From: Microcaldota archaeon
Lineage (GTDB): Archaea > Micrarchaeota > Micrarchaeia > Micrarchaeales > Micrarchaeaceae
Reading direction: 5' to 3'
NCBI GenBank assembly: GCA_021792395.1
Contig: JAJYUR010000003.1
Span: 1 to 63,029 of the forward strand
Length of the DNA stretch: 63,029 nt
Shown: in pieces, positions 9,978 to 33,708 of the stretch
Layout of the letters: each line of letters starts with the position of its first letter
Numbering within the stretch: position 1 is the first letter of the stretch
Made by a program: the position numbers and the translations under genes
Notes under the pieces: generated by a model
Databases searched by the model: none
What the model was told of the DNA's origin: nothing
Seen by the model: the letters and a program-made list of their open reading frames with translations, nothing else

Positions 9978-10095
9978 CGGATCTGGCGGGATTTTCATAG
10001 CGATTAGGATTTGTTAAAGTTCCCAAAAGTTTATTTTGAACCCGCAACCGCCCGGTCCGAAGCCGGACGCGCTGTCCAAGTTGCGCCACAGATCC
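9978..10095 (-). tRNA. tRNA-Arg (anticodon TCG) with an insert in the T-loop
   Basis: On the minus strand the acceptor GGATCTG pairs with CAGATCC. The D-stem is GCGC/GCGC, the anticodon stem TCCGG/CCGGG encloses CTTCGGA (anticodon TCG), the variable loop is CGGTT and the T-stem is GCGGG/CCCGC. The loop closed by the T-stem is 50 bases long instead of 7: it starts TTCAAA and ends AAAT. Removing 43 bases restores the standard TTCAAAT loop. This is best read as a non-canonical intron in the T-loop. The exact cut site is ambiguous over a few bases because of flanking As. The discriminator is G and CCA is not encoded. Confidence 0.85.
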
Positions 10096-10143
10096 TTAAT
10101 ATAAATTGTTGAATTGGGTATATATTGCTTAGTGAAATGCCCA

Positions 10144-33603: not shown

Positions 33604-33708
33604 TGCAGGGGGTGAGATTTGAACTCACGAAGGCGCTAAGCCACAGGATCTTAAGTCCTGCGCGTTTTTCTGTGGCCTTTAAGCCTGACCAGACTCTGCC
33701 ACCCCTGC
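33604..33708 (-). tRNA. tRNA-Leu (anticodon TAA) with enlarged D-arm region
   Basis: Acceptor GCAGGGG pairs with CCCCTGC. The anticodon stem CAGGA/TCCTG encloses CTTAAGA (anticodon TAA). A class II variable arm follows, then the T-arm GTGAG-TTCAAAT-CTCAC, discriminator A, and no encoded CCA. Between position 9 and the anticodon stem there are 39 bases instead of about 17. The excess of about 22 bases (around GGCTTAAAGGCCACAGAAAA) is best explained by a non-canonical intron in or next to the D-arm. Its borders cannot be fixed by eye. GCCACAG in the extra part is complementary to CTGTGGC downstream of the anticodon loop. Confidence 0.8.

Follow-up and report, generated by a model that had tools for sequence, protein, structure and literature searches.

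A probable bulge-helix-bulge intron at position 59/60 of tRNA-Arg(TCG) in a genome of the Micrarchaeota

The first 63,029 nucleotides (nt) of contig JAJYUR010000003.1 (hereafter the window), from assembly GCA_021792395.1 of a member of the Micrarchaeota, carry a tRNA-Arg(TCG) gene with a T-loop of 50 nt. This raises the question of whether the 43 nt in excess of a standard loop are an intron, a disruption of the gene or part of the mature tRNA, and, if they are spliced out, at which junction they are cut. The evidence presented here indicates, with high confidence, that the insert is an authentic and ordinary archaeal bulge-helix-bulge (BHB) intron occupying a non-canonical site, position 59/60, in the sole tRNA-Arg(TCG) gene found in the genome, and supports the T-loop intron proposed in a first-pass annotation of the window.

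The tRNA-Arg(TCG) gene and its orthologues

A cloverleaf scan of the gene (Table 1) identified seven of seven base pairs in the acceptor stem, a D-stem of GCGC paired with GCGC, a T-stem of GCGGG paired with CCCGC and an anticodon stem with five out of five pairs, one of them U-G, enclosing the loop CTTCGGA. The discriminator is G73, and position 20 is an A. Removal of the 43 nt leaves the standard TTCAAAT loop and rejoins the exons with all stems paired, as the first-pass annotation had described, and the coordinates it gave (9978-10095) are exact; the strand, which it omitted, is minus. In the window ARAGORN called a tRNA-Gln only and not the tRNA-Arg(TCG), while the Rfam tRNA model assigned the latter 25.6 bits, below its 29-bit gathering cut-off, so that default annotation would overlook this gene.

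The genome holding the window (G000) comprises 831,528 bases in 44 contigs and is 88.66% complete. Relatives of its splicing endonuclease, EndA, place the organism in the Micrarchaeota, near named Candidatus Micrarchaeum and Micrarchaeaceae records. A second, uninterrupted tRNA-Arg(TCG) gene, which had been named as part of an observation that would refute an intron, was not found in G000 when the genome was searched with the two Arg(TCG) exons joined.

Introns of 19-43 nt interrupt the Arg(TCG) genes of G000, G001, G003, G004 (two copies), G006, G007, G010, G011 and G012, and their removal leaves a standard T-loop in every case. The orthologues in G005, G008, G009, G016, G017, G018 and G020 are intron-free. 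The intron interior is akin among G000, G001 and one of the G004 copies, with no clear kinship elsewhere. The intron of the other G004 copy resembles that of the Ala(GGC) gene of G008, and 0/300 shuffles scored as well. Such likeness across isotypes hints at transposition as described for the Thermoproteales (PMC4033280), without proving it.

Bulge-helix-bulge geometry and the splice junction

The sequence AAAAT flanks the insert on both sides and, consequently, four junctions, from 56/57 to 59/60, would yield an identical product by sequence alone. The BHB rule, a 4-bp helix between two 3-nt bulges (PMC4090602), sets the junction at 59/60. The layout of the gene fits this core, as GCGGG-TTCA-AA|A ... 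TGAA-AA|T-CCCGC (vertical bars mark the cuts), where cuts after the second base of both bulges give TTCAAA + T. A real intron that is cut instead at 56/57, 57/58 or 58/59 would be inseparable from it by sequence, with an identical mature RNA in all four cases, and introns at 56/57 are likewise known (PMC4090602). However, 59/60 is the sole junction at which each cut follows the second base of a 3-nt bulge beside the 4-bp helix, and tRNA-Cys(GCA), with TTCGAT|A...AA|T, fits this same splice register; the other junctions retain a small probability.

The conservation of this geometry was assessed in T-loop introns gathered by cloverleaf rules only, for which the BHB was not consulted. They comprise 17 distinct introns from G000, the Arg loci of its relatives and Candidatus Micrarchaeum A_DKE, and loop bases 1-4 were scored for pairing with the four-base segment that immediately precedes the final three bases. 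At this 3-nt-bulge offset four out of four pairs form in 16 of the 17 introns and three out of four in one, as against none of the 17 with four pairs at eleven shifted offsets (1-11 further bases). Scanner scores of 18 or less represent chance, with one to three of the four bases paired. The two strands of the helix also covary. The exon sequence TTCG, in Cys(GCA) and two others, occurs with the intron sequence CGAA (three verified), TTCA occurs with a T-initial intron strand in 37 cases, and U-G pairs (TGGA) are found in three introns. A Fisher test of the association gave p=1e-4; the sequences are related, and this value is therefore optimistic and indicative only. The search pattern behind some of these cases let R and Y vary independently, so that the TTCG/CGAA covariation was not built in.

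Several observations weigh against a spliced BHB intron. The inner helix, h', is good in the sister genome G001 and in Ala(GGC), but weak in the Arg(TCG) precursor of G000, where it has decayed relative to the sister genome, and the motif is thus of the relaxed hBH type rather than the strict hBHBh'. The minimum-energy fold lacks the 4-bp helix (-12.6 kcal/mol free versus -11.3 kcal/mol with the BHB enforced), and the comparison points in the same direction in three other introns tested. Furthermore, in an assembly that is 88.7% complete a second Arg(TCG) copy could be missing. Folding energy was treated as neutral, and the case for the predicted BHB rests on conservation.

The free fold of the precursor consists of the T-stem, an internal loop and an intron hairpin, and would suit an enlarged T-loop that stays in the mature tRNA and is never spliced. 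An unspliced loop, however, gives no reason for the 4-bp helix to be conserved at a constant offset of 3 nt, the loops of the orthologues range from 26 to 50 nt, and the genome encodes both an epsilon2-type EndA and the ligase RtcB, so that retention of the loop appears extremely improbable. A tRNA pseudogene, disrupted by a random insertion or a small mobile element with AAAAT as its target-site duplication, would account for the repeat at both ends of the insert and for the failure of standard finders to call the gene. Against this stand the preservation of every stem in the exons of the sole Arg(TCG) gene found, inserts at the same site in nine orthologous copies from eight other genomes, mostly of different sequence, and the conserved and covarying central helix, while the repeat itself follows from the A-richness of the two BHB bulges. 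A pseudogene is accordingly considered very improbable.

Table 1. Features of the interrupted tRNA-Arg(TCG) locus (window coordinates)
Feature	Coordinates	Strand	Basis or remark
pre-tRNA-Arg(TCG) gene, 118 nt	9978..10095	-	Cloverleaf scan; orthologues 97-98% identical in 5' exon
5' exon, tRNA positions 1-59, 61 nt	10035..10095	-	
Intron, 43 nt, position 59/60	9992..10034	-	BHB geometry; length and sequence vary in orthologues
3' exon, tRNA positions 60-73, 14 nt	9978..9991	-	
Anticodon TCG	10058..10060	-	
BHB central helix, exon strand TTCA (positions 54-57)	10037..10040	-	
BHB central helix, intron strand TGAA	9994..9997	-	Compensatory CGAA where exon is TTCG
5' bulge AA|A holding 5' splice site	10034..10036	-	Sequence read against BHB rule
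3' bulge AA|T holding 3' splice site	9991..9993	-	Sequence read against BHB rule
TATA-like AATATATA, predicted promoter, -31 to -24 from tRNA 5' end	10119..10126	-	Upstream sequence

Splicing machinery and comparison with known systems

An epsilon2 EndA of 388 amino acids is encoded on a contig other than that of the window. Its residues 1-388 align to residues 1-387 of 4fz2 (E=9.9e-175), and this full-length match, one chain of three units, places it with the ARMAN-2 EndA structures 4FZ2/9W2K. The catalytic residues Y236, H251 and K282 (numbering of PMC12397907) and Y160 and K161 of the ARMAN-specific loop, which mutation has shown to be needed for cutting (PMC12397907), are retained, as are K228, S252, R275 and W384. 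The RtcB ligase is also encoded in the genome (E=1.8e-166). Two of the checks proposed in the first-pass annotation, for a BHB fold at the junctions and for an epsilon-2 EndA, had positive outcomes, with a possible fold given by the TTCA/TGAA helix with 3-nt bulges and the enzyme encoded with its key residues intact.

With these components the 43-base insert would almost certainly be removed by EndA. The precursor is presumably transcribed from its own promoter, after which the T-stem (h) would stack on the 4-bp helix formed by TTCA (54-57) of the exon and TGAA of the intron. The epsilon2 EndA homodimer may then cleave the two 3-nt bulges, AA|A and AA|T, behind their second base. Ligation of the exons by RtcB would restore the TTCAAAT loop.

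The site 59/60 is a published position of non-canonical archaeal tRNA introns (PMC4090602), and cleavage of non-canonical introns by epsilon2 EndA has likewise been published (PMC12397907, PMC6379350). The Arg(TCG) intron is a sound further example of an intron type and position that are both already known, and no priority is claimed for it. It shares with the archaeal 59/60 BHB introns their position, the geometry of the BHB, the length range, quoted as 11-129 nt, and the presumed removal by EndA (PMC4090602). That review names the Crenarchaeota and Nanoarchaeota as rich sources, whereas the host here belongs to the Micrarchaeota, and the arrangement recurs across this phylum. The introns of Candidatus Micrarchaeum acidiphilum ARMAN-2 belong to the same phylum and the same epsilon2 EndA type; the ARMAN-2 enzyme has been reported to cut pre-tRNAs of both the BHB and the bulge-helix-loop (BHL) type, but Arg(TCG) was not among the substrates assayed (PMC12397907, PMC6379350). 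The non-canonical introns of the Thermoproteales (cited in PMC4033280) likewise interrupt many isotypes away from the anticodon and are similar across isotypes. The enzyme of that group is, however, an (alpha-beta)2 form with a Crenarchaea-specific loop rather than epsilon2. The present locus adds one more essential tRNA that would owe its existence entirely to the splicing of a non-canonical intron.

T-loop introns across the Micrarchaeota and other interrupted tRNAs

A strict T-loop intron pattern matches 173 of the 295 Micrarchaeota genomes, compared to 0/295 for a reversed control. The check for a full cloverleaf covered part of these matches; most of the readable fetched loci are tRNAs. 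A looser pattern was dropped in favour of the strict one, as its control matches about equalled the real matches in some genomes. By group, the strict pattern matches 78/83 genomes of the host's own family, 60/78 of the sister family of the order and 35 of the 134 remaining genomes of the class. The first-pass annotation had considered such introns rare; in the Micrarchaeota they are common. No report of their phylum-wide frequency was found in the literature searched, which did not cover a key ARMAN paper. Epsilon2 EndA is matched in 275 of the 295 genomes, and its co-occurrence with T-loop introns is therefore uninformative as a test. Family f12, the one divergent family of the class, with small genomes (G045, G086, G092, G136, G141, G153, G167, G207, G226 and G255), shows weak or no epsilon2 EndA matches, and the T-loop pattern matches one of its ten genomes, too few to conclude.

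It is conceivable, though on balance somewhat doubtful, that the T-loop 59/60 introns with a TTCR/YGAA core form a lineage-wide class in the Micrarchaeota, whose gain, loss and copying from one isotype to another outpace the divergence of the tRNAs themselves, and which standard annotation mostly misses, so that many 'missing' tRNAs would be hidden by it. T-loop introns that share one geometry and number in the hundreds would provide a natural set for exploring how far the activity of epsilon2 EndA reaches and how tRNA introns are acquired and lost. The loss of such Micrarchaeota genes at ARAGORN and Rfam thresholds affects completeness estimates and claims on codon decoding.

The tRNA set of G000 was derived by searching the genome with the Rfam tRNA model and from individual stretches, rather than from an exhaustive intron-aware scan. 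In at least five further members of this set, Ala(GGC), Arg(TCT), Lys(CTT), Cys(GCA) and Ser(GGA), an intron interrupts the T-loop with the same geometry. Ser(GGA) has an insert in its anticodon loop as well, and Leu(CAA) carries a 12-nt T-loop insert without a strict helix. The interrupted tRNA-Lys(CTT) (L066, G000:C16:24615-24690, minus strand) is located ~550 bp downstream of endA. The 3.4-kb contig C19 holds another Lys(CTT), which has no intron and may be foreign.

D-loop inserts occur in Gln(CTG) (L067, G000:C1), Ser(GCT) (L070, G000:C10) and Leu(TAA). The tRNA-Leu(TAA), at window positions 33604-33708 on the minus strand, was missed by ARAGORN and, with an insert of ~19 nt (GGTCA[GGCTTAAAGGCCACAGAAA]AACGCG), represents a second candidate for a non-canonical intron in the window. 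A lone 3' tRNA half (CGAGAGTTCAAATCTCTCCCCCTGCA; L073, G000:C36:5465-5505) directly follows the stop codon of a protein gene, and a similar tRNA-Leu(TAG) lies 1.4 kb upstream of it. This half may be what is left of an integration site, or one part of a split tRNA. A probable tRNA-Trp(CCA) (L072, G000:C16:116 to ~290, minus strand) contains a long intron that, like its counterparts in other archaea, includes box C-like sequence.
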